DNA of 64,000 nt, taken from positions 80,099 through 144,098 of the forward strand of contig NZ_SPQP01000006.1 in assembly GCF_004571075.1 (NCBI RefSeq), in the 5' to 3' direction. This DNA is from Blastococcus sp. TF02A-35. Its GTDB lineage: Bacteria > Actinomycetota > Actinomycetes > Mycobacteriales > Geodermatophilaceae. Shown piece after piece: positions 1-15,537 of this stretch. Positions within the stretch are counted from its first letter, which is position 1; each line of letters opens with the position of its first letter. The notes under the pieces were generated by a model. The model made no database searches. It worked only from the letters and a program-made list of their open reading frames with translations, and was not told the origin of the DNA. Made by a program: the position numbers and the translations under genes.

Positions 1-814
1 GGACGAGGGGGTCGTACTCGCCCGGCGCCTCCTCCACCTGGGCGAGCACGGTCCACCACCGGCTCATCGGGGCCGCGCGCGTCAGGTCGTCGAGCATCAC
101 GCCGAGGAAGGAGTGCACCTCGTCGACGGGCCGCTCGACCGCCCCCATCCTCGGGCTGAGGGAGGTGCCGGACAGTGACGGGACGTCCACCACGCGCAGC
201 GGGCCGGCGTCCTCCGCGGCGATCCCGGGGCGCGTCTCCGACGCCGGCGGCCCGGCCACGAGGCCGAGGGTGACGGCGACGACGGCGACGCCGGTCGGGA
301 TGCCGGCACCGATCAGCCACGACCGGCGCGACGGCGTCCGGTGGCTCCGGCTGATGCCGTCGGGGTCCTCGCCCCGGCGCCGACGGCGGCGGTTGTCCCA
401 CCAGGACAGCACTCCCAGGGTCACGGCGATCACCGGCCACGAGAGGTAGGAGGTGAGGATCAGCGGCGCCACCGACTCCCCCGCCGCCGGCGCGGCCGCT
501 CCGCTGCCCCTCCCGCCGATCGGCGCGAGCAGCCAGATGGTGGCGGTGAGGCCGGCGCACACGGCGGCGAGCGTGGGCGGGAAGCGCTTGTTCGGCGGTC
601 GCCGCACACCCGCGACGAAGCACCCGACGACACCCGCCGTCAGCAGCACGCCGGCGGCGACCTGGGCCCACGCCGAGGGCAGGAGCAGCGCGAGCCCGCG
701 GCCCATCCACGGCGTCATCAGCAGCGTGACGACGGCGGCGATGCCCAGGACCAGGGCGACGGTGCCGCGCCAGCCCAGCTGCCGGCCGGCCTCGTCCACG
801 CGGCGGCGGGCCAT
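1..814 (-). CDS. Multi-pass membrane protein, C-terminus beyond left edge
   Basis: The frame is open from an ATG at 814 to the left edge, about 271 codons without a stop. The product begins MARRRVDEAGRQLGW and shows about five hydrophobic segments (near residues 16-35, 40-68, 78-100, 115-140 and 175-195) separated by Arg-rich cytoplasmic loops such as DNRRRRRRGED. A more polar stretch follows the last segment. I do not recognise a family. Because the gene is cut by the window edge, its real length is unknown. It lies downstream of the CHAT protease gene on the same strand, but a 257-bp gap with a strong hairpin separates them, so I do not count it as part of the defence operon. Confidence 0.6.
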   Translation of the reverse strand, partial: MARRRVDEAGRQLGWRGTVALVLGIAAVVTLLMTPWMGRGLALLLPSAWAQVAAGVLLTAGVVGCFVAGVRRPPNKRFPPTLAAVCAGLTATIWLLAPIGGRGSGAAAPAAGESVAPLILTSYLSWPVIAVTLGVLSWWDNRRRRRRGEDPDGISRSHRTPSRRSWLIGAGIPTGVAVVAVTLGLVAGPPASETRPGIAAEDAGPLRVVDVPSLSGTSLSPRMGAVERPVDEVHSFLGVMLDDLTRAAPMSRWWTVLAQVEEAPGEYDPLV

Positions 815-895
815 GGGGGTGCTCCTGTTCGCAGGGGGTGAGGACCGCCGAATCATCACCGATGTCCGTGACGGCTGCGCAGCAGGCTGTGGACA

Positions 896-931
896 CACGT
901 CGGGCCCGGTCAGCCGACCGGGCCCGACGTG
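896..931 (-). terminator. Perfect hairpin, likely terminator of the defence operon
   Basis: A perfect 16-bp inverted repeat (arms 896-911 and 916-931, four-base loop AGCC) lies between the end of the CHAT gene and the membrane protein gene. It has no T-run on either strand, as is common for actinobacterial intrinsic terminators. Its place fits the end of the minus-strand defence operon. The rest of 815-1070 shows nothing else that I can support. Confidence 0.55.
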
Positions 932-1070
932 GACAACAGGGGTGGGGTGTTAGATCCACGAACGGCGAGGTCCGGGCATCCGCTTCTACGAACGGCGCCG
1001 GCGGCTTGCACCCTTCAGCTCCGAAATCGGCACCCGTGGTGAGCGGACTCGCCCCACCACGCGTCGGAAG

Positions 1071-2213
1071 CTAGTCCGCTGGCGGAATGATCAGCGGTGT
1101 CGCCGCTGGGTCCACCGTGTCCTGTGCGCGGAGGACCGGCAGATCCGCGTCAGACATGCCGTCCATCTCCATCTGGATGCGCGCCGCCTCGTAGGCACTC
1201 CTGACGGACTGGCCGTCGGCGATGGCGGTGTAGAACCTCGCGGCGAAGGACATCGCGTCTGGGTCGCCGATCTCGTCGGACATGCCGATCGCCATCGGAA
1301 CGACGGTGAGCAGTTCGTCGAGGTGCCCAGTGGAGTGACAGGCGTTGAGGACGACCAGGACGGGAGGGTTGTCGACCGCTCCCATCGCGCGGGCGAACAC
1401 CGACTTCGTTATCACCTGGCCCAGGTTGTCACCGTCGGCCTCGGTGTCGAACACCAACACGTCTTCGTCAGCGTGCCCGGCAAAGTGGACCACATGGGGC
1501 TTGAAGCCGCTCATGCCGTCCAGAAGGTCGGCCCCAGTCGCGGCAAGCAGGGGCTCGATCTCCACGAGGTCTCGGAGCGTTGCCGCCTTGACCCCCTTCT
1601 TGACCCTGCGGATCTCCTTGTCCACGCGCAGGTCCCCGTCGGAAGCGGCAGTCACATAGAGGATGCGAAGGCGCTCTACCTGCGGAGGGCGGATCTCTGC
1701 GATTTGCTGCTGCAGTCGGCTCTCAGTCGCCGCCATCAGCGCCTGCGTCCGGGCTCGTTCTGCCTGCTGCTCTCGTTCCCTGGCTCGCCGCTCGGCCAAC
1801 TGCAGCCGTTCGCGGGCGCGCTTCTCGTCAGCTTCTCGCTGCTTCTGCGCCCGCTGGTCGGCTAGCTGCCGCTGCTTCTGGACGCGCTGCTCATCGCTGC
1901 GCTGCTTGTCCAACGCCGTTGACAGTGCCCGGCTGAGGTCAGCTTCCTTCTTCGAGAACTGGGCGCTCTTGGTGCTGTAGCCCGCGGCTTTGGCTCCCAG
2001 CGTCAGCGCTTCCTTCTGCGCCGATTCGGCTTGCCGCAGGTAGGAACGTGCCATTGACTGCGAAGAGGCGCGGTCCGCCCTGGACCGGTACGAGGCCGCG
2101 TCCGCTTCCTTCTTTGCCTGCTTGACGCGTGCGTCTGCTGCTTGCTTGTCCGCCTCGGCGCGCTTCTTGACGGCCTCGTCGATCTGGCGGCGAATCTGCT
2201 CCAAACTGCTCAT
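1071..2213 (-). CDS. CHAT-domain (caspase-like) protease with long N-terminal coiled coil
   Basis: The 380-residue product has two parts. Residues 1-180 are an almost unbroken charged helix rich in K, R, E, Q and A, most likely a coiled coil. Residues 181-375 look like a CHAT domain: beta strand LRILYVTAA, then PHVVHFAGHAD with candidate catalytic His247, then PVLVVLNACHS with candidate catalytic Cys292, followed by VVPMAIGM and a helix containing FARFYTAIADG-like residues typical of the family. CHAT proteases are cysteine proteases; in bacteria they act as effectors, for example TPR-CHAT with type III-E CRISPR and CHAT proteases that cleave bacterial gasdermins. No gasdermin is visible here, so the substrate is unknown. 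It is the last gene of the minus-strand defence train, 113 bp after the unknown protein. Protease activity is inferred from the His/Cys pair. Confidence 0.85.
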   Translation of the reverse strand: MSSLEQIRRQIDEAVKKRAEADKQAADARVKQAKKEADAASYRSRADRASSQSMARSYLRQAESAQKEALTLGAKAAGYSTKSAQFSKKEADLSRALSTALDKQRSDEQRVQKQRQLADQRAQKQREADEKRARERLQLAERRAREREQQAERARTQALMAATESRLQQQIAEIRPPQVERLRILYVTAASDGDLRVDKEIRRVKKGVKAATLRDLVEIEPLLAATGADLLDGMSGFKPHVVHFAGHADEDVLVFDTEADGDNLGQVITKSVFARAMGAVDNPPVLVVLNACHSTGHLDELLTVVPMAIGMSDEIGDPDAMSFAARFYTAIADGQSVRSAYEAARIQMEMDGMSDADLPVLRAQDTVDPAATPLIIPPAD

Positions 2214-2326
2214 CGTGGCCTCCCCCGCTCTGGCGCCAACCTTTGCTGGCGCTCACCGGGAGGCTACGAATGGGTACTGACAGTTCTCAGTCGACCGCCC
2301 GCCATCCAACAGCGCTACGACGGTAG

Positions 2327-2925
2327 TCAGAGCGCGGTGATTCCGTCGCGACGAGCATGCAGCACATCCAGGACCGGCGCTGCGGCGTCCCACAGCTGGC
2401 GGAAGGCCATCAGAACGTCCCGGATGAGCGCGGCCGGATCCAGCGGCGCGCCAGTCGGCGACTCAACGTAGCGCCAGAACGGGAACGTCCGACCGGACGA
2501 CCCCTTGAGCTGTGCGCGCACCGGTCGCCTGGCCTCGCTGATCTGGCGACGGCGTTCCTCGTCAGCCGCGTCGGCGGGCAGACGCACGGCGACGTACGGC
2601 CACTCATACGACCCCGGCGTGAGCAGACGAGCGCGTTCCCACTGGATGACGGCGCTGACGTCCGCAGCTCCATTGTGCTGCCAGGTCGAGCGGCGCAATC
2701 CCGCCCTCGGCCAGGAGCCCGAGTCCAGGTCGTTGGTCTCCAGCTCGGCGGCAAGTTCTTCGGCCAGCTCTTCCAGCTGCGCAGCGACCCCGACGAGGTG
2801 CTTGTCCAGAAGCTGGCGCCTTCTGCGCGTAGAGCAGCCCAGGTCTCGATGTCGTGCCGGTGGTCGAGGTAGAACCACGCCTTTGCGTCGGCATCTTCGC
2901 GCGTGACGGCGAGCGGGTCAGGCAC
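2327..2925 (-). pseudogene. Unknown protein in defence operon, reading frame broken by one missing base
   Basis: Coding starts at GTG 2925, which overlaps the end of the nuclease gene by eight bases (GTGCCTGA). The first 36 codons read as a normal acidic protein (VPDPLAVTREDADAKAWFYL). Near 2820 sense passes to another frame that continues QLLDKHLVGVAAQLEELAEE and runs to a stop at 2327. One extra G at the GG of 2819-2820 would give AEGRQLLDK and one protein of about 199 residues. It has helical segments and a conserved-looking middle containing YEWPYVAVRLP. I recognise no family. Coupling to the nuclease suggests a partner, regulator or immunity role, but that is inference. The break may be an assembly error rather than decay. 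Confidence 0.6.
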
Positions 2926-3680
2926 GGTGGTAGGCCTCCAGGGTGGCGATGTAGTCGTGGACTCCGGGAGCTGCCCCTGTCAACGAGGTGGCGGCCGCGC
3001 GGGCGATGTCGGGACCTGCTCCCAGGTGAGTGCTCGCCAGTGGCCGCGGCTCTCCACGGCGGTGATTGGCAGCCGCCGGCCGCGGGTGAGGAAGACGAAG
3101 CTGGGCGCCGGCTCGTCCCGCCAGTGCTCGTACAGGCGGTCCAGCTGACGCTCCTGCTCGACGGCGAAGGTCTTGGCCTCTACCACGATCGTCCAACTGT
3201 GGCCGTAGATGACGAGGTCGGCCCGGGTTTCCTCCCGCTGCTCCTCCAGCACCACCCGCACACCGGGGTCCGCGCCGGACCCGTCGAGCTCCAGGTGATC
3301 CAGCAGCCCGTCGAGCACAGAGGGACCGAGGCCGTGGTGGCCGTCGGGACGGAGCAACCAGGCCAATCCCGCGGTCACTGCCAGCTCCCGGTACTGCAAG
3401 TCCAGGGCAGCGAGGAGCGTCCGCGGGCCACCCCGCCAGCGGCCGCTCACCAGCAGGGCCTGCTGGGCGTCCCGCATGTCCGCCAGCCGTGGCTTCCACT
3501 GGGACACAAGCGCGCCGGCGCGAGACCGCTCCGCCGCAGCGACGTGCTGCCAGGCAGATGCTGTCTCCTCGTAGCGCTCCTGCCACCCGCGCAGCGCAAT
3601 GCCAGCTGGTCCTGCCGGAACCGCCAGTGAGTCGCGTGAGGCGGATCACCGAGAGGCACAGCGCCTCCCCAATGCCTCAC
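2918..3680 (-). pseudogene. PD-(D/E)XK family nuclease, frame broken at two places
   Basis: GTG 3680 overlaps the stop of the response regulator as GTGA. The N-terminal sense (VRHWGGAVPLGDPPHATHWR) leaves this frame near 3587, continues as QERYEETASAWQHVAAAERS and the 175-residue frame down to about 3012, then moves to a third frame ending with DYIATLEAYHRA at 2918. Each break is repaired by adding one base to a G/C run, giving about 253 residues. The core reads RADLVIYGHSWTIVVEAKTF, the Asp...Glu-X-Lys signature of PD-(D/E)XK enzymes, followed by a helix with a Q/R-rich face. Such proteins are nucleases in restriction and other defence systems. All three frames look coding, so the gene is recent or the breaks are sequencing errors. 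Coupling to its neighbours on both sides marks it as a true member of the operon. Confidence 0.72.
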
Positions 3681-4876
3681 TGCTCGCGACCGCTGAGTAG
3701 TTCGCCAAGCTGATGCTGCGCTGATGTATCCCGCGAACCAGTGCTCAGATCCACATACTTCAGGCGGTCCGTCGTGCTCGTTTCACCATGACGGCTCTGC
3801 TGGAAGCCATCCACCACTCTCACGGTCCAGTCACCGGCCAGGGCACCGTCCGCCAGGACCAGCGGCCACATGTCTACATAGCCTCCGGCGGATCGCAGGT
3901 ACACGCGGCCGGTGACCAGCGGAGTCGCGACATCCGCGCGCACCGGCGCCACGGACTGGGCTGCGCCAGCGAGAACTGCGAGGTCAACGCTGTAGGTGCT
4001 CCCCGTGAAAGCCATAGGTCCTGCGACCACCAATTCGAGAGGGGTGCTCGTCCGGGCGGTCAAGACGAACCAGTCCAGCCATCCGAGCACATCGGCCAGT
4101 GCCCCATCCCAGCCGCTGGCCGGGGCGCCGCCGCCATGCACCACATCGTTCCGGTGCTGTACGACGGCGTTCGCCTCGGTGACACATACGGCCTCGATCC
4201 ACCTGACCAGCACTCGGTCACGGAGCTGCGGAAGAAGACGACGGCAGATTTCCTGCCAAGTTCCAAAGCTCGGCCGCACCAGATGGGTGAGCACCGGCTG
4301 GTCGAGCGGCCCTTCGGTCCGTATGGCGGAGATGGCGGCGAGTGCACAAAATCGTGCAATCGCTTCAGCTGTCACAAGACTCGCCCGCAGTTGAGATTCC
4401 CGGTCAAGCGGCACCTGCATGCGCTGATACGGGAGAGCGATGGGGGTTGGAAGTTGATTGACGGCGAAGTCGACACGCGAACTTTGGCTCCGGGCGAGCA
4501 CCTCTTGGATTCGCTCGGGGAGCTCGATGGCTGCCCTGTCTTTCATGACGAAGTCGTGCGCCAATCGCATCGCTTCGATCGTCTCAGACTGCCCACCCTC
4601 TCCAGACAGGACAAGCGTGTCGATGGCGAGACCACGCTCCGACAGCTCGCGGAGCAACCAGAGTCCTCCCCAGTCATCGGGCGGCATATGGAGGTCCACC
4701 ACGGCCAGGTCGAACGCTTCGGCGGAGAGTCGCGTCAGGGCGGCCTCGCCGTCGTCGGCGAATCTGCACTCGAAACTGCCCTTGGGTAGCAGCTTGGACA
4801 GGGTCACCGCCACATCTCTTTGGTCGTCGACGAAGAGAATGCGCGGGCGGCGGGGGCAGGGGCTAGCGGCGGACAT
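3677..4876 (-). CDS. Response regulator with HEPN-like C-terminal domain
   Basis: Residues 10-130 form a receiver domain: acidic pair Asp17/Asp18, phospho-acceptor Asp61 in VVDLHMP, Ser91 in VLSGEG and Lys112. The remaining 270 residues are not a DNA-binding output. They contain FGTWQEICRRLLPQL and then VVQHRNDVVHGGG, where Arg242-N-D-V-V-His247 fits the RX4-6H motif of HEPN domains, many of which are metal-independent RNases in toxin, CRISPR and anti-phage systems. A beta-rich C-terminal part follows. The ATG lies three bases after the stop of the sensor kinase gene, so the pair is co-expressed. I infer that phosphorylation of Asp61 controls the HEPN-like part. RNase activity is not proven; the domain may instead be a scaffold. 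Confidence 0.85.
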   Translation of the reverse strand: MSAASPCPRRPRILFVDDQRDVAVTLSKLLPKGSFECRFADDGEAALTRLSAEAFDLAVVDLHMPPDDWGGLWLLRELSERGLAIDTLVLSGEGGQSETIEAMRLAHDFVMKDRAAIELPERIQEVLARSQSSRVDFAVNQLPTPIALPYQRMQVPLDRESQLRASLVTAEAIARFCALAAISAIRTEGPLDQPVLTHLVRPSFGTWQEICRRLLPQLRDRVLVRWIEAVCVTEANAVVQHRNDVVHGGGAPASGWDGALADVLGWLDWFVLTARTSTPLELVVAGPMAFTGSTYSVDLAVLAGAAQSVAPVRADVATPLVTGRVYLRSAGGYVDMWPLVLADGALAGDWTVRVVDGFQQSRHGETSTTDRLKYVDLSTGSRDTSAQHQLGELLSGREQ

Positions 4877-4879
4877 GTG

Positions 4880-7800
4880 CTACTTGTCTCGACTTTCGGC
4901 TTGGCCGTCTTCTGTCACGGTCGGCAGCGTCAAGAGCCAACCGGTTCCTTTCGCCCGCGGCGCAGGCTCAAGTTCACCACCGACACGACGGAGGGTCCGC
5001 CGGACCCCGAGGAGGCCCAGACCACTTCCTTCCCGCTTCCCGCTGGTGATCGCCCTCCCTGCTGCGAGCGCTTCGAGGACGGCGGCCGGGATACCGGCAC
5101 CGGTGTCCGCAATCTCCAGCAGGACGACGTCGTCACCTGGCGAGGACGTGTAGTCGAAGGTGATCTCGCCGCCTGCAGCCATTGCCTGCTCGGCGTTCTT
5201 GACCAGGTTGTCCAGCACCGCGCGGAGTGCACGCTCGTCGATCGCCACCACCGCAGGGGCCAGCGCGGGGGGAACAACGCGAATCTGTGTCGGTAGCCGC
5301 CGGATGAGGTCGCTGATATAGGCCTGCATAAAGGCAGCGAGTTCTGTGGTCCCTACGAGGTCGGCGGCCTCGTACAGCATGTCCGCGTCTCGCAGCCGCG
5401 ACGCGAGAGCGGCTGCTGCATCCATGTGCCGGCTGGCTGCGAGCTGCGCTTCCAGGCGTTCGGTCCGCGTGGGTGTATTTCGGTCGTACGCCAGCCGCGC
5501 AGCGGTCACCTCGTTCTTCAGGTCGTGGATGAGGCGCGCCAACTCAGCGTCGTAGTCATCAGCTGTCGGTTGGCCGTACGCGGCTCGCGTCAGCCAGTTT
5601 TCGTCGGCGTTGGGCGGCGACGTCTTCACGCTGAGCTGGATGGATCGTGCGTCGTGGGCGCCTACAAGCAGCGTGGGACAGGTCTCGCACAGGAGCCGCA
5701 TCGTCAGGGTGTCCTTCACCTGGTCGAGCGGATGTCTCGCACAACTGACGGTCACTGAGACACCGGCCGCGGTCGTTCGGCCGTGCATCGACAGGCGAGG
5801 TTCAGGCTGTCCGGATAGGGCCGCGGCACACTCCTGCAGGGCCCTGAACAGGGCCGCCGCTGTGCGTGCATCGACCACAGCGCCATCCAGGGGGAGGTCG
5901 CGCTCGACCTGTAGCCGACGCCGATTGACCAGGAGCCAGTTCTCCAGGACCTGCGCAACCGGCTGATCCGCCCCGGCGGACATCCACACGCTCTGTGCCG
6001 CCGATAGCGCAACGAGTTGTTGCGTTGGCTCATCCCACGACGTAGCGGGCTCGTCGGCGTCGGCGGCTGCCGCTATCCAAGCCAGGAGTGCGGAGAGGAC
6101 GTCCGTGAAGATCACCCGCTTCCGCGCGGTTTGCGAGACCTGACCGAAGTAGTCAGCCAGCGCGGCCTCAGCAACTGCATCGGGCCGCCAACCCGGACCG
6201 ATGACGTCGCACACGCCAGCGGCCCAACGACCGAACCCATGCCGATCGCCCTGCTGCACCATGCGCGCACCCAGTCGCCCGGCACGCTGCCAGCGCGGCC
6301 AGCGAGTCCGTGATGCTGCGAGCAGTTCAAGGTGCCGCACAAGGAGGAGGCGAGCGATCGTCGTGTCCGGCACACGCCCCGCGCCATCCGTCAAGATCTC
6401 CGCAGACGACCAGAAGTGTGCCGCCGCGATCTTGCGGGCAGCGGTCCGGGAAGCGCCGGCTCCCTCCACCGAGATCGGCTGTGCAAGGCCCCGCACGTTC
6501 AGCCGAACGCGGAAAGTGGAGTTGTGGTCCGGCCCCTCCCGCGAGCTGTCCTCCTCGACTTGAAAGTCGAGTTCGACAGAGAGCTCTTGCAGGCGGGTGA
6601 CGGGGTCCACGAGGCTTGTGCTGCTCTGCGCACCCAGGAACTGGTGCACTTCGGCAGGGAGATGGCTCTCGAAGGTCGAATGGTCCGGCCACTGGATGTG
6701 GGACGCGGCGAGCGTCGCCTGAACCATGTTGGCGATGATCTCGTCGGAGAGAGGTTGCCCTCGCAGTCCGGCGCTGAGTCGGACGAGCCTCCCGAGGCCA
6801 AGAGCCTCGAATATGGGTCGCAGAGCCGCGTCCGGGACGGTGAGCGCGACCGCGACATCGGGGTCGGGGTCGGTCGTCCGACTCAGCAGCACCGCCGCCC
6901 GCCGGCGCATCATCGCAGCGTTCAGAACAAAGCTCCCAAGGTTGGCGAGCATCGCGTTGCCGTCACGGTCGGTGTCTCCCTCACTGACGTTCTCGTACAC
7001 CCAGGATCGGTGAATGAGGGCGCGGGCGAACGGCCCCGCATCGCGGCAGCCGAACCTGGCGGCGAGCGCGGCGTACCGCTCATCTACCAGCGGCCGCGCC
7101 GGTCGGCGCACGACCGGCTTCCCGCGCTTCGCCGGCGAACCCTGGTCCGCCAGGACGTGAGGCGCGTGTCGGGACAAGTAGTCGTGACACGCGAGTCGCT
7201 GCGCGTGCTTCTTCGAGCCGGCCTCCCCCCTTCCCGTTCGGCCGTCCTTTGTCGTGACTGTCACCGTGAAGACGGCGTCGTGGTCCGGGCCTGCCTGTGC
7301 GACCTCGAATGCCGGTTTCAAACCTTGGGCATGCTGCTGAAAGAGCGACCGCACGTCCGCAGCTGTGGCTGAGGACATCGCGGCGTCGGCGTACAGCGTC
7401 TCTACAAACGTCCGTAAGCCGGCTCCCGCTACCACAAGAGACCACCAACCCACGACCTGCATGGCGACGGCATCGAACGTGCGAACGGTGGAACCGGACG
7501 CCACCTTGTTGGCGGCCTGTGACGCCTCACCCCGACCAAGGTGAGCCCGGTTCTGAACTTGAAGGCTTTGCCCGAGACGTTCGCGGACCATGCGACCGAC
7601 ACGATTCGCCTCTTCATCGCGTCGCTTCACGTCGAAGTTCGGAGCCGCCTTCGCTATGGCGCGTCGCAGTTCAACGTCGACTGCTGCTTTGCCGACGCTT
7701 TCTAGCAGCGACAGGCACACCGCACTCACATTTGGGAACTCGTCAGGACTTTCATAGAGACCGGATCGGTGCAGCGTCGCAACGGTCAGCCACTGGCGTT

Positions 7801-7927
7801 CCCTCGATTGAAGCTCCCCCAGTGCGTGCCCCATCGCTCGCTCCAGTTCTGCCCACGACATCACCTCACCGATGGCTTGCGGCAGAGCGACGAGCGGAGG
7901 TAGCGGAGATCCGGCCGGTCGGCTCAC
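4880..7927 (-). CDS. Tandem RNase III-like/dsRBD protein fused to a histidine kinase
   Basis: The 1015-residue product combines modules I have not seen named together. Residues 25-135 and 283-430 look like RNase III folds (TLHRSGLYE and LIHRSWVYE match the HRS...E helix). The catalytic signature is lost in both: LESVGKAAV and ANLGSFVLN replace LEFLGDAVL. Each is followed by a dsRNA-binding domain: residues 190-252 (GPDHDAVFTVTV, GSKKHAQRLA) and 441-505 (GPDHNSTFRVRL, SRTAARKIAAAHF). Residues 515-790 are a helical and mixed linker. Residues 795-1000 are a histidine kinase: His801 in LIHDLKNEVT, N-box LRAVLDNLVKNAEQ, G1 box IADTGAGIP and G2 box GSGLGL. There are no membrane segments, so it is a cytoplasmic sensor, probably of double-stranded RNA. 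GTG start at 7927, 97 bp after hsdR. Confidence 0.88.
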   Translation of the reverse strand: MSRPAGSPLPPLVALPQAIGEVMSWAELERAMGHALGELQSRERQWLTVATLHRSGLYESPDEFPNVSAVCLSLLESVGKAAVDVELRRAIAKAAPNFDVKRRDEEANRVGRMVRERLGQSLQVQNRAHLGRGEASQAANKVASGSTVRTFDAVAMQVVGWWSLVVAGAGLRTFVETLYADAAMSSATAADVRSLFQQHAQGLKPAFEVAQAGPDHDAVFTVTVTTKDGRTGRGEAGSKKHAQRLACHDYLSRHAPHVLADQGSPAKRGKPVVRRPARPLVDERYAALAARFGCRDAGPFARALIHRSWVYENVSEGDTDRDGNAMLANLGSFVLNAAMMRRRAAVLLSRTTDPDPDVAVALTVPDAALRPIFEALGLGRLVRLSAGLRGQPLSDEIIANMVQATLAASHIQWPDHSTFESHLPAEVHQFLGAQSSTSLVDPVTRLQELSVELDFQVEEDSSREGPDHNSTFRVRLNVRGLAQPISVEGAGASRTAARKIAAAHFWSSAEILTDGAGRVPDTTIARLLLVRHLELLAASRTRWPRWQRAGRLGARMVQQGDRHGFGRWAAGVCDVIGPGWRPDAVAEAALADYFGQVSQTARKRVIFTDVLSALLAWIAAAADADEPATSWDEPTQQLVALSAAQSVWMSAGADQPVAQVLENWLLVNRRRLQVERDLPLDGAVVDARTAAALFRALQECAAALSGQPEPRLSMHGRTTAAGVSVTVSCARHPLDQVKDTLTMRLLCETCPTLLVGAHDARSIQLSVKTSPPNADENWLTRAAYGQPTADDYDAELARLIHDLKNEVTAARLAYDRNTPTRTERLEAQLAASRHMDAAAALASRLRDADMLYEAADLVGTTELAAFMQAYISDLIRRLPTQIRVVPPALAPAVVAIDERALRAVLDNLVKNAEQAMAAGGEITFDYTSSPGDDVVLLEIADTGAGIPAAVLEALAAGRAITSGKREGSGLGLLGVRRTLRRVGGELEPAPRAKGTGWLLTLPTVTEDGQAESRDK

Positions 7928-8024
7928 GCGGCCACCTCAGCGGCCAACAGTTCAGCCTGCTGCATGACCAAGGCGGCGCCTTCCTGCTTGTTCGGTGGGC
8001 AGCAGTGCTTCGTCATCCGTGCCG

Positions 8025-11000
8025 TCACGCGACCGTGACGTCGGGAAGAGCACGCTCTCTGACCTGGTGGAGAACGGTCACGATGCCGTCAACCTCTTCC
8101 TCGGAGAAGATCGAGTCCGGGCCGTGGGGCGCGCTGTCAGTGAACGGCGATTCGTAGAGACGGCCCACGTCCATGACCCCGTTCGCGGTCAGGTGCTCGA
8201 CGATGAGCTGGACGAACCGCATCTGGTTGACCGAGTACACGCCGTCGGACAGGTAGCGGTCGAACGCGGCGGTCGCGGCCTCGCGGTCGAGGCCAACCAG
8301 GGAGCGGATGAACAGCCCAAGCCCGTGGGACTCCTCGCGGGCGCGGGCGATGTCGACCTCGCTGCCGGCGCCGGACTCCACCAGCATCGCCTCCAGCGAC
8401 GCCAGGTCCTCCGGTGTCAGCTGAAGGTTGCGGCGAAGACGCTGTATGGCCAGGTGGTCTTCGTGGTCGCGGAGGTAGGCCCGGGCCTTCGCACGGAACC
8501 GTTCCCAGTTGGTGCCGGGGGTGACGCCGGGCAGTTCGATGATGCTGCTCTCGCCGAGCTCGTCGGCGAAGTTGGAGTAGACGACGGCGCGCCGGGACTT
8601 CTCCACGAAGCGCACGAGCGCGCGGATTCGGCGCCGGGCGAGCTCGAGCATCGGGAGGGTGACGTCGACCCACCATTCGTCGCCGGACAGCTCCTCGAGG
8701 AGCTGCTGCTGGGCCTTGACCGAGGGGATCCCGGTCTGACCGAGCAGGGCGGCGGTGATGTCCTGCACCTGCGTGCGCAGCCGCTCGAACTGGATGGCAT
8801 CGCCGTCGAGGCGGGCCAACTGCAGTCGCAGCAGGATCAGGTCGAAGCGTTTGGCGTCCTCGTCGTCGTCCCGCTTGGTGGAGGGCAGGCCGGCGAGGTG
8901 GTGCGCGATGTCGCCGGCCTTCTCCGGGGTCAGCGGGTGCCAGGCGCCCCAGTTGGAGTACGTCTCGACCCACTGCCGGGCCGGGCGGACCAGGAAGTTG
9001 TCGACGTTCATGCCGACCACCACCTCGTGCAGCGTCCAGGCCACGTCCACGCGCAGGCCGCGTTCGCTGACCTCACCCTGGCCGACCTCGGGGTGACCGC
9101 CGGAGTCGGCGCCGACGCCGGTCTTGTCCAGTGCGGCGAGCAGTCCCAGGCGGGCCTCGAACAGCCGCTCGGCGAGCGACTTCTGCAGCGAGCCGCCGGA
9201 GTCGGGCAGGTTCTGGCTGAAGAACTCGAGGTTGCCGCAGAAGTCGAAGACGTAGAAGTTCTTCTTGTCCTCCCCCGGCCCGTAGAGGTCGGGACACAGG
9301 CGGGTGCCGCGGCCGATCATCTGCCAGAACTTGCTCTTGGCGCGCACCAGTTTGAAGAAGACCAGGTTGACGACCTCGGGGACGTCGATGCCGGTGTCGA
9401 GCATGTCGACGGAGATGGCTATGTGCGGCGCCTTGTCCTTGATCGAGAAGTCGTCGATGAGGTTCTGGGCGTAGGTCACCGAGTGGGTGATGACGCGGGC
9501 GAAATGGCCGGCGTACTCGGGGTAGTTGGCGTCGAAGCGCTTCTGGATGAACTCGGCGTGGGCCTGGTTCTTGGCGAAGATGATGCTCTTGCCGAGCCGG
9601 TCGCCGCCGGCGACCTTGTGGCCGTTCTGCATGAGGGTGGCGAGGACCTTGTCGACGGTGTCGGCGTTGAAGAGGAACTTGTTGAGCTCCTCGGCCGCGA
9701 CGGCGTCGGGGATGTCGCCGTCCTCGTTCCACTCCAGGGAGTCCCAGTCGTCCTTCTCCTGCTCGCTGAGCTCGTTGTAGCGGATGCCTTCCCGGAGGAA
9801 CTTGGTGGGCACCGACACCGCCACGGGGGGCACGAGATAGCCCTCGGCAACGGCCTCGTCGAGGCTGTAGGCGTCGGTGGGCACCCCGTCTTCGAGGTTG
9901 AACAGCGTGTAGGTGTTGCGGTCGACCTCGTCCTTGGGCGTGGCGGTCAGGCCGACCAGCAGGGAGTCGGACCAGGAGAAGATCGCGCGGTACTTCTGGT
10001 AGACCGACCGGTGGGCCTCGTCGACGACGATAAGGTCGAAGTAGCCGGGCCCGAACAGCCTCCTACCCGCGTCGGTCTCGTTGATCAGGTTCATCATGGT
10101 CGGGTACGTCGAGACGTACACCCGGCCGTCGGCGACCTGCTCGGTGACCAGGTTGACCGTGGTCGCGCGGGGCAGATGGGTCTTGAACGCCCCGACGGCC
10201 TGGTTGACCAGGGCGGTGCGGTCGGCAAGGAACAGCACCCGCTTGACCCACCCGGCGCGCATCAGCTGATCGACCAGCGCGATGACCGTTCGGGTCTTGC
10301 CGGACCCGGTGGCCATCACGAGCAGCGCGGCCCGCTGCTTGGCGGTGAACGTCGCCCCCACTGTCCGGATCGCGCGCTGCTGGTAGTGCCGGCCGACGAT
10401 CGCCTTGTCGATGTCCGCGTCAACGAGCGGCAGGCGGCCGGTGCGGCGCTGCACCATCAGTTCCAGCTCGTCGGCGGTGAAGAAGCCCTCGACCCGGCGC
10501 GGCGGGTAGCCGGCGGCGTCGTCCCACAACCAGGTCTGGTAGCCGTTGGTGTACAAGATCACCGGCCGGCGGCCGGTCATCTGCTGCAGGCAGTCCGCGT
10601 ACAGCTTGGCCTGCTGTTGGCCTACCGCCGGCTCGGCGGTGGTCTTCTTCGCCTCCACCACCGCGAGCGGCAGCCCGTCGCTGCCCCACAAGACGTAGTC
10701 GACGAAGCCTTTGCCCTCAGCGTTGGGCATGCCGGTGACCTCGAACTCGCGGTCCCGAGCATCGGTGAGCTGCCAGCCCGCCTCGCGGAGAAGTTCGTCG
10801 ATGATGAGGTCGCGGGTCTGAGCTTCGGAGTAGTCGTGCGTGTCAGTCAGCGTGGTTGCGGCTTGCGCCGCCTTGATCTGCTGGCGCAGCGCTTCGATCT
10901 CGGCGTCCTTCGCCGCCGCAAGGTCGTCCCGCTCCTTGAGCGCACGGGCATTGGCCTCGTCCTGCTGGCGGAACTTCTCCGCAAGCTTGACGACATCGGC

Positions 11001-11444
11001 TCGACTTAGCGGCGCCTGACTACCTGCGAGCTTCGGATCAAACACCGCCCCGGTCGGCACTGCCGCCGGGTTGGCGGAGTAGCGGAACGCCGTCCACACG
11101 ACCACGTGGTGCAACTCCCGCAGTACATCCACCGCGACCCGGGCGGGGATGGGCTGCACGTCATGAACCGCGCGGTTGCCTAGCCTGCGGAGCAGATTGA
11201 GCTTCTGCCCAATGCCGACGCCAACCCGCCGCTGAAAGGCTGGCTCGTTGATCCGGGCCGACAGGTCGTCCTTGTACGGCTCGGGCAACGCGTCGACGTC
11301 GTAGATGAGCCCGACCACCTGCTCCGCCGCCCGGCGGGCATAGAAACAGGCCGACCGCGGGTCGGAGGCGAGGTAAGCCTCGGCCTGTACGCAATCCGCG
11401 TGGACCTGCGGCCACTGAGCCTCAACGAAGCCAAAGTTGCTCAC
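8025..11444 (-). CDS. hsdR: Type I restriction enzyme R subunit
   Basis: The product of about 1139 residues is the translocase/nuclease subunit of a type I restriction-modification complex. It has an N-terminal cysteine-poor helical region, a PD-(D/E)XK nuclease (VDYVLWG... with VVEAKKT), then SF2 helicase motifs: Walker A MATGSGKTRT, DEAH box VVDEAHRS, GLTATP and motif VI MIGRGTRLCPDL, and a C-terminal EcoEI-type region that docks on the methyltransferase core. An upstream TTG at 11495 is open, but I chose GTG 11444 because a good ribosome-binding site (GGAGAG) precedes it and the product then starts VSNFGFVEAQWP, the usual start of this family. It follows hsdS after 55 bp. Confidence 0.95.
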   Translation of the reverse strand: MSNFGFVEAQWPQVHADCVQAEAYLASDPRSACFYARRAAEQVVGLIYDVDALPEPYKDDLSARINEPAFQRRVGVGIGQKLNLLRRLGNRAVHDVQPIPARVAVDVLRELHHVVVWTAFRYSANPAAVPTGAVFDPKLAGSQAPLSRADVVKLAEKFRQQDEANARALKERDDLAAAKDAEIEALRQQIKAAQAATTLTDTHDYSEAQTRDLIIDELLREAGWQLTDARDREFEVTGMPNAEGKGFVDYVLWGSDGLPLAVVEAKKTTAEPAVGQQQAKLYADCLQQMTGRRPVILYTNGYQTWLWDDAAGYPPRRVEGFFTADELELMVQRRTGRLPLVDADIDKAIVGRHYQQRAIRTVGATFTAKQRAALLVMATGSGKTRTVIALVDQLMRAGWVKRVLFLADRTALVNQAVGAFKTHLPRATTVNLVTEQVADGRVYVSTYPTMMNLINETDAGRRLFGPGYFDLIVVDEAHRSVYQKYRAIFSWSDSLLVGLTATPKDEVDRNTYTLFNLEDGVPTDAYSLDEAVAEGYLVPPVAVSVPTKFLREGIRYNELSEQEKDDWDSLEWNEDGDIPDAVAAEELNKFLFNADTVDKVLATLMQNGHKVAGGDRLGKSIIFAKNQAHAEFIQKRFDANYPEYAGHFARVITHSVTYAQNLIDDFSIKDKAPHIAISVDMLDTGIDVPEVVNLVFFKLVRAKSKFWQMIGRGTRLCPDLYGPGEDKKNFYVFDFCGNLEFFSQNLPDSGGSLQKSLAERLFEARLGLLAALDKTGVGADSGGHPEVGQGEVSERGLRVDVAWTLHEVVVGMNVDNFLVRPARQWVETYSNWGAWHPLTPEKAGDIAHHLAGLPSTKRDDDEDAKRFDLILLRLQLARLDGDAIQFERLRTQVQDITAALLGQTGIPSVKAQQQLLEELSGDEWWVDVTLPMLELARRRIRALVRFVEKSRRAVVYSNFADELGESSIIELPGVTPGTNWERFRAKARAYLRDHEDHLAIQRLRRNLQLTPEDLASLEAMLVESGAGSEVDIARAREESHGLGLFIRSLVGLDREAATAAFDRYLSDGVYSVNQMRFVQLIVEHLTANGVMDVGRLYESPFTDSAPHGPDSIFSEEEVDGIVTVLHQVRERALPDVTVA

Positions 11445-11499
11445 TGCCGACTCTCCGAAACGCGTCGCAAGACCATAAGGGCACCGGAACGACAAGTCC

Positions 11500-12651
11500 T
11501 CATAGCCGCCCCGACACCGCGGCAGCCTGTAGGCAGTCCTCCAGCTGACTCAGAGCCTCATGCGAACGCAGAGCCCCTAGCCTGGCCGCTCTGATCGCGC
11601 CCAATCGCCGCACGAAGTCCAACTGCTGGGCCATTGGGGGAGCGAAGACCGAGAAAGCCTTGATGTCCTTCAGATTCACGGTCTTCTGGGCGGCACCCCG
11701 GGCAGCCACGTCGGCTTGCCTCTTCACCTCTGGGGCCGCCAGCTGCGCAGCCAAGAACTCGGGATGGATAAGTTCGCGCCGCGGCTTGAGATGCGCAATG
11801 TGTCGCTGAAACGCAAACTTCCGCTCGCTACGAACAACAACGGGGACACCGTACGAGCCGACTGTGGAGTAAAGGACATCTCCGACCTCGATGGGACAGC
11901 GAGCCGTCAGTTCTGCATGCGTATCGCCGGAGATGAACTTACTCGTCGTAAAGTTGATCTCACCTGACGTGATGTTGCTGACGAACAGAAATGGGTGCCC
12001 CTCCTTCGCCCATTCCGGGGACTGGTGGGTGCCATCTGTAATCCGCACACACAGATCTGCCAGCGGCAGAAGTCTTTGCGGGCCCCCGCCGAACATGTCT
12101 CGAAACACGGACTGAGCAAGATCCTCAAGTCGGCCTACAACTGCAGCGCGATTCATCGACAAGGCGCCTGCCCGATCTAGGATCGTCGCGATACGTCGCT
12201 GCTCATCGAGGGTTGGAACTGGAATCTTGACGCGGGCGACCGTAGACTTTGAGAGCTCTTTGAACGTGGCACCATTGCCGAGCGACTGCAAATAGGCCTT
12301 GCTACCCCTCAGCCAGTGATACAGGTACTTCGGGTCCAAGACGTCGCTATCCGGCATCAGGCTCTTGAAGCCTTGGTTCGTCGCCATCGGAATCGTGTTG
12401 ATCGCGACGTGGCCGATGGGGGCCCGGGAGCTGAGAAGCACCGAACCCACTGGAAGGAGCTTCGCCGAGCAACTGGCAAGCCCAGCCGCTGTCAGCTTGC
12501 GCGGCGTGGAATCGATGTACGCCCCGCTGAGCTGACTCAGATCGGCCGGCGTGGCCCAATCGATATCTCCGCCCCAGAACTCAGGGACAGAGCTACTGGG
12601 CGTCGCTCCCGAAACAATCTCACAACACTCCCCAAGCGCTATCATCTTCAT
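11500..12651 (-). CDS. hsdS: Type I restriction-modification specificity subunit S
   Basis: The 383-residue protein has the two-repeat layout of HsdS: a first target recognition domain (IALGECCEIVSGATPSS...PVPTLDEQRRIATIL) with its conserved helix, then a second (LPLADLCVRITDGTHQSPEW...FAPPMAQQLDFVRRL). The PxxxxQ helices after each domain form the spacer that sets the distance between half-sites. The ATG overlaps the hsdM stop as ATGA. Base composition is visibly less GC-rich than the surrounding chromosome, as is usual for exchanged specificity genes. The recognition sequence cannot be read from the protein. Confidence 0.95.
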   Translation of the reverse strand: MKMIALGECCEIVSGATPSSSVPEFWGGDIDWATPADLSQLSGAYIDSTPRKLTAAGLASCSAKLLPVGSVLLSSRAPIGHVAINTIPMATNQGFKSLMPDSDVLDPKYLYHWLRGSKAYLQSLGNGATFKELSKSTVARVKIPVPTLDEQRRIATILDRAGALSMNRAAVVGRLEDLAQSVFRDMFGGGPQRLLPLADLCVRITDGTHQSPEWAKEGHPFLFVSNITSGEINFTTSKFISGDTHAELTARCPIEVGDVLYSTVGSYGVPVVVRSERKFAFQRHIAHLKPRRELIHPEFLAAQLAAPEVKRQADVAARGAAQKTVNLKDIKAFSVFAPPMAQQLDFVRRLGAIRAARLGALRSHEALSQLEDCLQAAAVSGRL

Positions 12652-14108
12652 GAAAGCATTGCCTTCAGATCTGCCAGGTCCTTCCGAATCTGATCTTCCA
12701 GGCTTTCAATCTCTGCGACGATCTCCAACGGCGGACGCTGTTCACTCTCATGGTGGACAACCTGCTGGTAGCGATTCAGCGAGAAATCGTAGTCTTGGGC
12801 GGCAATCTCGGACTTCGGTACGCAGAAACTGCGCTCGGTACGCTCACGCTTTCGCTCCTGGGCATTCCGCTCCTGCCATCGTGCGAGCACGTCGGGAAGG
12901 TCATTGGCTTCGGTTGGGGTGCGCTTATCGTCGAGACTGAAGCCGTCTGCCTTTACGTCGTAGAACCACACGTCCTCAGTACCGCCACTGTTGGTCTTGG
13001 TGAACAGCAGGATGGCTGTGGAGACGCCGGCGTAGGGCCTGAAGACCCCGGACGGGAGCTTGACCACGGCGTCGAGCTTCTGGTCCTCGACCAGGATCCG
13101 CCGTAGGGCCTTGTGCGCAGTTGACGACCCGAAGAGAACTCCGTCGGGCACGATGACCGCTGCCCGCCCACCAGGCTTGAGCAGCCGCAGGAACAGCGCG
13201 AGGAAGAGCAGCTCGGTCTTCTTGGTCTTGACCACGCGCTGCAGGTCCTTCGACGTTGACTCGTAGTCGAGGCTGCCCGCGAATGGTGGGTTCGCCAGAA
13301 TCAGCGAGTAGATGCCTTCCTCGCCCGCCGCTCCCTCGGACAAGGAGTCGCGATAGCGGATGTCCGGCTGCTCGACCCCGTGCATCAGCATGTTCATGCT
13401 GCCGATGCGCAGCATGGTGGAGTCGAAGTCGTAGCCGTGGAACATGCTGCGGTGGTAGTGCTGCCGCTGCTGCTCATCGGTCATGACCGTGGGGTGCTCG
13501 TGGCGCACGTACTCGGAGGCGGCGACGAGGAAGCCCGCGGTGCCGCACGCAGGGTCACAGATCTCGTCCGACGGCTGGGGAGCGGTCATCGCGACCATGA
13601 GCTGGATGATGTGCCGGGGAGTGCGGAACTGGCCGTTCTGACCGGCTGAGGCGATCTTGCTGAGCATGTACTCGTAGAGGTCGCCGTTGGTGTCGCGGTC
13701 TTGCATGGGAACGTCGTCGAGCATGTCGACGACGCGGGAGAGCAGCGCCGGGGTCGGGATGGTGAACCGGGCGTCCTTCATGTGCTCGGAGTAGGTGGAC
13801 CCGTCGCCGCCTAGCCGGCGCAGGAACGGGAAGACGCCTTCGCCGATGACCTGGTGCATGACCCCGGGCTCGAAGTCCTTGAACCGGGACCAGCGCAGGC
13901 CCGCCTCGCTGGGCTGGAAGATCGGGTCCTCGATCGGCTTGCCGGTGCGGTTGGCCTTGCGCTCCTTCAGCGTCTGGAGGTCGTCGAGCCGACGGATGAA
14001 GAGCAGGTAGGTGATCTGCTCGATGACCTCGAGGGGGTTGGAGATGCCTCCGGACCAGAAGACGTCCCAGACTCTGTCGATCTTGCTCTTGAGCTCGCCC
14101 GTGATCAC
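12648..14108 (-). CDS. hsdM: Type I restriction-modification DNA methyltransferase subunit M
   Basis: The 486-residue N6-adenine methyltransferase has an N-terminal helical HsdM domain (ITGELKSKIDRVWDVFWSGG), the S-adenosylmethionine-binding motif DPACGTAGFL at residues 185-194 and the catalytic NPPF motif at 273-276, followed by a C-terminal S-subunit binding helix bundle. With HsdS it methylates the host target and protects it from HsdR. The start is GTG 14108. A short 39-codon ORF upstream ends on this GTG as GTGA, which suggests translational coupling. Confidence 0.95.
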   Translation of the reverse strand: MITGELKSKIDRVWDVFWSGGISNPLEVIEQITYLLFIRRLDDLQTLKERKANRTGKPIEDPIFQPSEAGLRWSRFKDFEPGVMHQVIGEGVFPFLRRLGGDGSTYSEHMKDARFTIPTPALLSRVVDMLDDVPMQDRDTNGDLYEYMLSKIASAGQNGQFRTPRHIIQLMVAMTAPQPSDEICDPACGTAGFLVAASEYVRHEHPTVMTDEQQRQHYHRSMFHGYDFDSTMLRIGSMNMLMHGVEQPDIRYRDSLSEGAAGEEGIYSLILANPPFAGSLDYESTSKDLQRVVKTKKTELLFLALFLRLLKPGGRAAVIVPDGVLFGSSTAHKALRRILVEDQKLDAVVKLPSGVFRPYAGVSTAILLFTKTNSGGTEDVWFYDVKADGFSLDDKRTPTEANDLPDVLARWQERNAQERKRERTERSFCVPKSEIAAQDYDFSLNRYQQVVHHESEQRPPLEIVAEIESLEDQIRKDLADLKAMLS

Positions 14109-14224
14109 GCTGACGCCTCTGTCATCGACGCCACCCGTCGCACTGGGTCGCAGAACTGGTCTGCTGCCGTGAACGGCACGGCCTGGAACTTCAGCGGTTC
14201 GTACTTCTTTGCGCGCGGCGGCAC
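14105..14224 (-). CDS. Possible 39-residue leader peptide coupled to hsdM
   Basis: A GTG at 14224 opens a 39-codon frame that ends with TGA overlapping the hsdM GTG (GTGA). A ribosome-binding site-like GAGGGAGTT lies just upstream. The peptide begins VPPRAKKYEPLKFQAVPF and has ordinary amino-acid use. The overlap type is the same as elsewhere in the operon, so it may be the first gene of the defence train, or the 3' remnant of a longer gene cut when the neighbouring transposase remnant arrived. I recognise no family. Confidence 0.4.
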   Translation of the reverse strand: MPPRAKKYEPLKFQAVPFTAADQFCDPVRRVASMTEASA

Positions 14225-14343
14225 GTGCAACTCCCTCGGTTCAGTTCAAGCACAGGCACGGTAGCCCGACGGCCTCCACACAGTGGACAACCGGACACGG
14301 TCGGTCACGCCAACGAGCGGTTCACCTCCTTTCGGCGTCGGCA

Positions 14344-14979
14344 GACGACGTCGACGAGTTCCAGCGCAACTGGGCCTTCGACCGGAAGGAGAGCGGCCTC
14401 GGCAAGAGCGTGACCAGCAAGTGGATCTGCCCCGCCCGCGCCGGGCGCGCCGGCTGCCACGCCCTCGGCGCCGCGCAGGGCGAGGCGGCCACCCAGCTGG
14501 GGCTGCCGATCATCACCCCGCCGGAGGACCACACCACCCGCAAGTCCTGCACGAACAAGACGATGGACTTCACGCCCGACCCTGACGACGCGAACCACGA
14601 GCGCAAGCTGATGCAGCGTGAGTACTACGGCAGCCGCCGGTGGCGGCGGCTGTTCAAGCGGCGGGCGCTGGTCGAGGGAGTGTTCGGAATCCTCAAGAAC
14701 GCCAGCCGGCAGCGACTGCGCCGCGGTCAGAACCGACTCCCCGGCCTGGCGATGGCCTCCATCGTCGCCGCGGTCAAGGCCAGCGTCTTCAACGAGGAGC
14801 AGCTCCGCAGCTGGCACGACCGCCCCGCCCGCGGCCCGGCCGACCACCCGCTGCTGCAGCCCGACCCGCCCTACTGGGGCTTCCGCGACCTGACGAAGGA
14901 GGAGGCGAAGGCCGTCGACGCCGAGCACCTGCGTCGCCTCCGCGGCGGCCACATGCAGCCGGTCCTCGAGGCTGCCTGA
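14344..14979 (+). pseudogene. 5'-truncated DDE transposase remnant
   Basis: The sense starts in the middle of a protein (DDVDEFQRNWAFDRKESGLG) and ends normally at a TGA. The C-terminal part RRALVEGVFGILKNASRQR followed by RLPGLAMASIVAAVKA resembles the end of DDE transposases of the IS1182/IS1380-like type: the ALVEGVFG...K segment would carry the last catalytic Glu. There is no start codon with matching N-terminal sequence and no recognisable terminal inverted repeats, so this is a decayed copy. It is the only mobile-element sequence between the defence island and ssrA. Confidence 0.65.
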
Positions 14980-14993
14980 CACCTGCGTGAGAC

Positions 14994-15033
14994 GACGAAC
15001 CGCCCCGGACCTGGAGGTCCGGGGCGGTTCGTC
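14994..15033. terminator. 18-bp perfect hairpin downstream of ssrA
   Basis: The arms 14994-15011 and 15016-15033 pair perfectly around the loop TGGA. The hairpin lies between the 3' end of the plus-strand transposase remnant and the 3' end of the minus-strand tmRNA gene, 41 bp beyond the latter. It probably terminates ssrA and may act in both directions. There is no T-run. Confidence 0.75.
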
Positions 15034-15073
15034 AATCTACGAAGAGTCTCCGCACAATCTGCGAAGACCTCAG

Positions 15074-15449
15074 GGGTGGAGGTGGCGGGAATCGAACCCG
15101 CGTCCTTCGACGCATCACCAGGGCTTCTCCGAGCGCAGTCCGCGTTGCCTCTGCTCGACCCCGTCGATCATGCGGACAAGTCGACGTGACGGGCCCAGTC
15201 GCTGTGTGATGTCCCGCCCGCGCCCGCGACCGGCACGTGCGGTGAGTCATCTAGCTGATGCCAGGATCCGGGCCGATGACGAACCCGGGCTGACAGACTC
15301 GCCTAGCTGCTATCAGGCAGCGAGAGCGAAGTCGCGCTGATTGGAATCGGCGCTTGTGTGTTTTCCAACGCGTGGTTAACGAGCTCATCGTTGGCTTCCT
15401 CGGCTCGCTTCCCCTGGTCACCCGACCGAAGTCGAGACCATTCACCCCC
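15074..15449 (-). ncRNA. ssrA: Transfer-messenger RNA (tmRNA)
   Basis: This RNA of about 376 nt rescues stalled ribosomes together with SmpB. The 5' end GGGGGTGAATGG pairs with the 3' end CACCTCC to form the seven-bp acceptor stem (one G-U pair). The T arm reads GCGGGTTCGATTCCCGC. The discriminator A and CC are encoded; the final A is probably added. The reading frame in the middle (15313-15351) encodes the degradation tag ADSNQRDFALAA and ends with TGA, close to the ADSHQRDYALAA tag of mycobacteria. smpB lies 7.3 kb away on the same strand. The 3' end of ssrA is a classic integration site for genomic islands, and the defence island starts just beyond it. Confidence 0.95.
15313..15351 (-). 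other. tmRNA tag-peptide reading frame
   Basis: Twelve sense codons plus TGA encode ADSNQRDFALAA. The resume codon is GCC. The C-terminal LAA is the recognition signal for ClpXP-type proteolysis. Confidence 0.93.
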
Positions 15450-15537
15450 TGTGTAGTTGTGCAGACAGCGTAACGGCACGGGCAAGCGCCTTGTTCCTGC
15501 GCGTCCCCGCCGGCCGGGTCCCGCAGGCGCCCCGGAC

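Follow-up and report, generated by a model that had tools for sequence, protein, structure and literature searches.

The stretch analysed here, 64,000 nucleotides of Blastococcus sp. TF02A-35 (contig NZ_SPQP01000006.1, positions 80,099 to 144,098; the window), carries five successive minus-strand genes near one end, which raises the question of which of them work together and at what. A sequence-only reading had joined them into one defence path made of a tandem RNase III-like/double-stranded RNA-binding domain (dsRBD) histidine kinase, its response regulator, a PD-(D/E)XK nuclease, a partner and a CHAT protease. Comparison with other loci supported the core of this idea, a kinase sensing double-stranded RNA (dsRNA) and a HEPN-like regulator in a defence setting, but not the five-gene path. 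The kinase and the regulator form a conserved two-gene pair carried by some Actinobacteria, and we see an even chance that the pair is an anti-phage dsRNA alarm. Read most simply, the two genes would be a complete defence in themselves, with a dsRNA grip, a phosphorelay and a HEPN RNase. The genes and domains of the pair are as follows.

4880..7927, minus strand: sensor kinase gene, an open frame of 1015 amino acids (aa)
7358..7852, minus strand: RNase III-like domain 1, residues 26-190 (boundaries approximate), K and Q at the D45 and E117 equivalents
7181..7348, minus strand: dsRBD 1, residues 194-249, PF00035, GPDH and KK motifs retained
6608..7081, minus strand: RNase III-like domain 2, residues 283-440 (boundaries approximate), Q at the E117 equivalent
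6392..6604, minus strand: dsRBD 2, residues 442-512, second dsrm stretch, more divergent
4913..5560, minus strand: histidine kinase core, residues 790-1005, from PF02518, invariant columns and the predicted fold
3677..4876, minus strand: response regulator gene, an open frame of 399 aa with receiver, HEPN-like and C-terminal beta domains
4481..4852, minus strand: receiver domain, D17, D18, D61, S91 and K112 present
4052..4459, minus strand: HEPN-like helical domain, residues 140-275, with E171xxxR175, from the model and conservation
4136..4153, minus strand: RNxxxH motif (RNDVVH), residues 242-247
3701..4039, minus strand: C-terminal beta domain of the regulator, from the model

The sensor kinase is ordered as RNase III-like 1, dsRBD 1, RNase III-like 2, dsRBD 2, a linker and the DHp-CA core. 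A Pfam scan found two dsRBD stretches, HATPase_c and one RNase III-like match below the cut-off; neither a helicase nor a PAZ domain was matched. The second RNase III-like domain was recognized when the two halves of the kinase were compared (E 5e-17), and the predicted fold agrees, which bears out the tandem arrangement proposed earlier. The RNase III profile for this comparison came from 10 loci, several of whose open reading frames (ORFs) were probably misframed; alignment to solved RNase III structures was independent of that profile. The H-box histidine (H801 in HDLKNE, the presumed phospho-acceptor), the N-box (N911) and the HATPase domain expected of a histidine kinase are all present. 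A degenerate second HATPase at residues 655-775 was considered and dropped for want of profile support (hhalign probability 0.4). In the predicted model, the two RNase III domains of one chain form an internal pair as in Drosha and Dicer, with a predicted template modelling score (pTM) of 0.55.

The catalytic positions of domain 2, and those of domain 1 as placed through a domain 1-domain 2 alignment and, around the G-D pair, by visual inspection, were compared in 20 proteins. The E117 equivalents of both domains and the E41 and D45 equivalents of domain 2 were replaced in 20/20, with Q, A and S recurring as the usual substitutes. Where RNase III has its NERLEFLGD-type signature, domain 2 of the window's kinase reads NAMLANLGS. 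Key catalytic residues are missing from the tandem RNase III/dsRBD core, whose predicted fold resembles that of Drosha and Dicer. The possibility was considered that it is a kinase-regulated enzyme that still cuts dsRNA. Active Drosha and Dicer have the predicted fold, and a few acidic positions are retained in part of the family, but the uniform replacements make an active enzyme scarcely credible.

The regulator model, made with 26 sequences, is confident (predicted local distance difference test, pLDDT, 90; pTM 0.90) and shows a receiver, a helical domain and a C-terminal beta domain, the last (residues 280-392) being confidently predicted as a separate fold. The phospho-acceptor aspartate and the acidic pair of the receiver are present in 15/15 loci. 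The RX4H motif seen earlier in the regulator is indeed there as RNDVVH, and its R, N and H are found in all 26 aligned regulators and in 10/10 of a more divergent set. RNxxxH and Ex3R occur together in 15/15 loci. In the model, RNxxxH closes helix 234-247, and the following helix starts at 255. The marks of HEPN domains, in the cited part of PMC3710099, are Rx4-6H with a polar residue after the R and an upstream Ex3[KR]; the regulator has both. The only DNA-binding-type Pfam match among the 26 regulators was a marginal DnaA_N in one of them (E 0.32), which speaks against a transcription factor.

The kinase adjoins the regulator at all 17 loci found via the regulator. The two are 3 bp apart in the window, and the spacing measured at 11 two-gene loci runs from -23 to +5 bp, some of the start codons having been assigned by hand; at four loci (L054, L074, L075, L076) they are fused into a single protein. 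The regulator was found in 15 distinct genomes and on two Streptomyces plasmids, one with integrase genes adjacent, including 9/300 genomes of one family (that of G127) and 2/297 of another (that of G401). A protein search among 5.77 billion sequences, with 7995 candidates scored, gave at least 12 full-length kinase relatives, and a wider alignment added at least one more together with at least six proteins without a HATPase match. One scan confirmed no kinase relative in viral contigs. When the kinase N-terminus was searched against the 397 genomes of the order, six of the 17 matches came with kinase and regulator, two were long proteins with neither (G304, G383), and nine were weaker (E between 3e-15 and 1e-12, in frames 244 to 442 aa long) and look like ordinary RNase III. 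At L072:5835-9337 the kinase is broken across several frames while the regulator is open, and at L056:8351-10559 an internal deletion has removed most of the RNase III/dsRBD sensor; both loci were left out of the Mantel test. From the gene lists, L056 is apparently the same island as L054.

Tandem RNase III-like/dsRBD relatives that have no kinase were also observed (L052:8897-11338, L055:7845-11075, L060:9470-12298, L061:9485-12316 and L062:9479-12409). The L061 protein has brxC and pglX nearby, that of L060 adjoins a methyltransferase/helicase pair and DUF262 genes, and that of L062 has a type ISP restriction-modification (R-M) enzyme within 10 kb. The L055 protein has a match to the CoiA N-terminal domain.

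The kinase probably detects dsRNA. Architecture, residue loss and retention, gene pairing and neighbours were observed, and from these we infer a path of three steps. Invader dsRNA, or long structured RNA, would first be bound by the paired RNase III-like/dsRBD module and left uncut, because the dsRBD motifs are kept and the catalytic residues lost. Binding would then switch the kinase on, leading to autophosphorylation at H801 and then, putatively, phosphotransfer to the regulator at D61, with H801 and D61 both in place. Finally, the HEPN domains of the phosphorylated regulators may pair and cut RNA, so that growth of the infected cell would halt and protection would result.

The genes around the pair give this proposal its defence setting. 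Neighbours include Avs3a (L071), a CBASS cyclase with TRIP13 (L077), GmrSD with DruE (L054), GmrSD, HNH and HsdM (L072), HsdM (L074), a subtilase (L073), a TPR-CHAT gene (L053 and L058) and PDDEXK_13 with a PLD-like gene slightly under the cut-off (L021). The Avs3a relative is a protein of 2158 aa that lies past the pair on the opposite strand (L071:8960-15436). L051 and L076 have related operons with an ATPase that we read as SMC-like (29% identity over 661 residues) and DUF2399 in one gene. These operons (L051:1780-7391, without a PADLOC name, and L076:830-7650) have a layout that we take to be Wadjet-like.

A control was used to evaluate the neighbours. Of 123 proteins called at 14 loci no more than 7 kb from the pair, 122 entered the neighbour set (49,217 residues), without ORF L078:488-4396 and without the window, L022 and L056. 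For the control, 161 proteins were called in 11 random 20-kb stretches on contigs that carry 11 of the pairs, and 122 of them (42,556 residues) were used, covering 9 genomes; L088, L089, one L086 protein and all but three L087 proteins were left out for equal numbers. Genes in unannotated loci came from our own caller, and wrong frames occur in both sets. At the preset PADLOC threshold (E <= 1e-20), 97 families matched in the neighbours and 5 in the control (DEDDh, PDC-S48 twice, mad3 and TPR). At E <= 1e-50, a threshold chosen afterwards, at least 8/122 neighbour proteins matched against 0/122 in the control (Fisher 0.003); the neighbour protein counts are lower bounds from the first 25 of the 97 families and the per-locus PADLOC results. 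The defence setting is well illustrated by these examples, but the control lends it no more than moderate support.

Several observations weigh against the pair being an anti-phage dsRNA alarm. In the kinase, some catalytic positions remain (the domain 1 E41 equivalent is E in 8/20 proteins, and domain 2 retains E38 in 4/20 and D114 in 10/20), the dsRBD-1 lysines K239 and K240 are missing in 7/20 and 3/20, the largest superpositions of the model with known folds have a root-mean-square deviation of 6-8 A, and the domain arrangement is uncertain because the pTM is 0.55. In the regulator, the HEPN Pfam family PF18735 was reached by 2/26 sequences (best E 0.0095) but not by the window's own, a profile search of the helical domain against the PDB gave no match, and a fold search, in which the matches listed were response regulators found via the receiver, barely probed the HEPN part. 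The pair is also rare, the regulator occurring in 7/397 genomes of the order and 3/394 of the class. No recognized defence neighbour was found at L022, L059, L075 and L078, and at L051 and L076 only the unnamed SMC-like operons. Counted per protein at 1e-20, the neighbours score at least 9/122 and the control at most 5/122, which is not significant (Fisher 0.2); the number drops because several families belong to one protein. Moreover, the RNA trigger could be cellular.

Two further explanations were weighed. Because profile support is weak, the helical domain is labelled HEPN-like, an assignment that draws on motif and predicted topology; PF18735 also matched two further relatives below its cut-off, and PADLOC gave RTasHEPN at E 0.017. 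The domain may not be a nuclease, and the regulator could then work through its C-terminal beta domain or through protein contacts, recruiting a nearby effector. This would suit the weak profiles, the confidently predicted fold of residues 280-392 and the variety of nearby effectors. However, RNxxxH and Ex3R are invariant across very divergent regulators, which a binding-only role does not need, and no nearby effector is held in common with the window, so that we regard a non-nuclease regulator as distinctly unlikely.

The second explanation is a cellular two-component system for RNA stress, in which host dsRNA or structured RNA is sensed (RNase III overload, for example) and the pair rides on mobile regions without a role in defence. 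That the trigger is viral is a presumption, the pair is on two plasmids, one of them with the adjacent integrase genes, several loci lack recognized defence neighbours, and the per-protein difference at 1e-20 is not significant. Against a cellular role stand the sporadic distribution of the pair and the Avs, CBASS, Druantia, GmrSD and type I R-M core proteins that adjoin it, with far stronger matches than those of the control. We consider such a stress system unlikely, but the least unlikely of the alternatives to an anti-phage alarm.

Beyond the pair, the other three genes of the supposed path lie downstream.

2918..3649, minus strand: PD-(D/E)XK gene, frame-broken, PF14281 in a frame that stops at 2980; outside the conserved core
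2327..2925, minus strand: gene of unknown function, frame-broken; no counterpart seen beside the pair at other loci
1071..2213, minus strand: coiled-coil and CHAT-like gene, an open frame of 380 aa; no counterpart seen beside the pair at other loci

The nuclease signal in the first of these is sound, since PF14281 (PDDEXK_4) matched with E 2.3e-8 and 34.7 bits against a gathering cut-off of 22.3 bits, but the gene is not intact. The matching frame has coding-type GC content at third codon positions from about 3600 to 3000 and then stops at 2980, and the ORF 2918-3649 reads a different frame across this stretch and runs on to 2918. The partner, too, is no intact gene, with a frame change near 2820. 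Both breaks may be decay or an assembly error. The CHAT-like gene, like those of the pair, is an open minus-strand frame in the ORF list; its Pfam match missed the cut-off (23.2 against 24 bits), and HFAGH and NACHS can be read as the H and C of what is presumably the caspase-type dyad of a CHAT-like protein.

For the three genes, tblastn (E <= 1e-3) returned nothing from the stretches retrieved at the 16 other loci, which at L022 comprise a 7.8-kb contig and at L077 end 763 bases past the regulator, with genes further out lying beyond view. Within these stretches, the kinase and the regulator are the two genes shared with the window's locus. That all five form one signal path would agree with their common strand and tight spacing in the window, with the differently built CHAT genes that L053 and L058 have close to the pair, and with a different PD-(D/E)XK gene in L021. 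Set against this are the missing matches, the two broken frames and neighbours that vary between loci, and the five-gene system was rejected as very improbable. CHAT as a recurrent partner was also rejected, the two other CHAT neighbours having no significant similarity to that of the window. Within the best explanation, held as a whole at the same even level as the alarm itself, the type I R-M genes, like the nuclease and the CHAT protease, share a defence region with the pair without being obligatory parts.

The region upstream of the kinase contains the following features.

8025..14108, minus strand: type I R-M operon, defence neighbour (hsdR, hsdS, hsdM)
8025-11495, minus strand: hsdR
11500-12651, minus strand: hsdS
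12648-14108, minus strand: hsdM
15075..15449, minus strand: tmRNA gene (ssrA), 3' end towards the R-M/kinase region

The five-gene stretch directly follows this operon, as stated earlier, with 97 bp between hsdR and the kinase. A transposase-like fragment was seen by eye in the ORF list between the tmRNA gene and hsdM (14410-14979). The 3' end of the tmRNA gene is a frequent insertion site of islands. A copy of the ssrA 3' end as proof that an island had integrated was considered and rejected, as no second copy with up to three mismatches was found either in the window or in L057, whose sequence extends 14 kb left of the window. Direct repeats within 1-15500 are short.

If the proposal is true, bacterial immunity gains a receptor devoted to dsRNA that signals through a phosphorelay, and the paired RNase III fold of the Drosha/Dicer type exists outside eukaryotes, an architecture called a eukaryotic invention serving bacteria as an immune sensor. 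The relatives without a kinase that lie near BREX and restriction genes would then represent additional outputs of this sensor. Two questions would become testable, namely whether bacteria generally use dsRNA as a sign of infection and whether proteins with tandem RNase III domains have a single origin or several, and the two-gene core is compact enough for transfer into a laboratory strain.

Among known systems, Detocs is the nearest defensive two-component system, with a histidine kinase and a receiver protein in these roles. It is described in the cited part of PMC11249213 as a three-gene family with phosphorelay in anti-phage defence, whose best-described effector is an ATP-cleaving PNP. 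The likeness is the phosphorelay-type pair of kinase and receiver, seen here at the level of gene pairing. The differences are two shared genes instead of three, a tandem RNase III/dsRBD sensor, and the effector, since no PNP matched by Pfam in the 26 regulators or in the subset of neighbours scanned and the likely effector (HEPN) lies inside the regulator. The pair resembles a defensive two-component system yet misses two tested Detocs features. Schlafen RNases that occur near BREX in fusion with a minimal histidine kinase plus a winged helix-turn-helix domain (PMC12839542) likewise combine RNase and kinase modules in a defence setting, but the part of that paper cited has the Schlafen RNase, no RNase III or dsRBD terms and no separate regulator. 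The Lyngbya HEPN-RNase III-dsRBD protein also links HEPN with RNase III/dsRBD modules in a bacterium; in the cited passage of PMC3710099 it has a single RNase III domain, expected to be active, and no kinase or receiver is mentioned. HATPase and REC domains appear among the predicted systems in a figure legend of DefensePredictor (PMC13092281), a paper in which neither RNase III nor dsRNA is mentioned. No description of a kinase-RNase III-dsRBD fusion or of a receiver-HEPN defence regulator was found in the available text of the literature searched, which had preprints outside its scope. Structured RNA is an infection signal in CBASS with an RNA-sensing cyclase; a nucleotide second messenger is used there and a phosphorelay here.

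Drosha and Dicer, of RNase III classes III and IV, share with the kinase two RNase III domains per chain and, as predicted at pTM 0.55, their internal pairing. The kinase differs in lacking the full catalytic acidic residue set, in having a dsRBD between the RNase III domains as well, in having no helicase or PAZ Pfam match (unlike Dicer), and in being bacterial and fused to a histidine kinase. In the passages cited, classes II to IV are exclusively eukaryotic in evolution (PMC8138440) and a Dicer orthologue is absent from bacteria and archaea (PMC5303251). The kinase has the paired-domain layout without being a Dicer, and independent duplication is as possible as common origin.

Parallels by role exist in mammals, the dsRNA alarms PKR and OAS-RNase L. 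PKR links a dsRBD sensor to a kinase, and OAS-RNase L leads from a dsRNA signal to a HEPN-type RNase, RNase L, whose KEN domain is classed as HEPN in the cited part of PMC3710099. A His-Asp phosphorelay takes the place here of a Ser/Thr kinase or of 2',5'-oligoadenylate (2-5A), and the kinases are likened by role only. The full form of the proposal, in which a dead Drosha/Dicer-like tandem RNase III senses viral dsRNA and signals through a His-Asp relay to a HEPN ribonuclease as the bacterial counterpart of PKR and RNase L, is tentative and somewhat short of an even chance; in broader terms, the pair is a likely bacterial parallel to the human RNA alarms.
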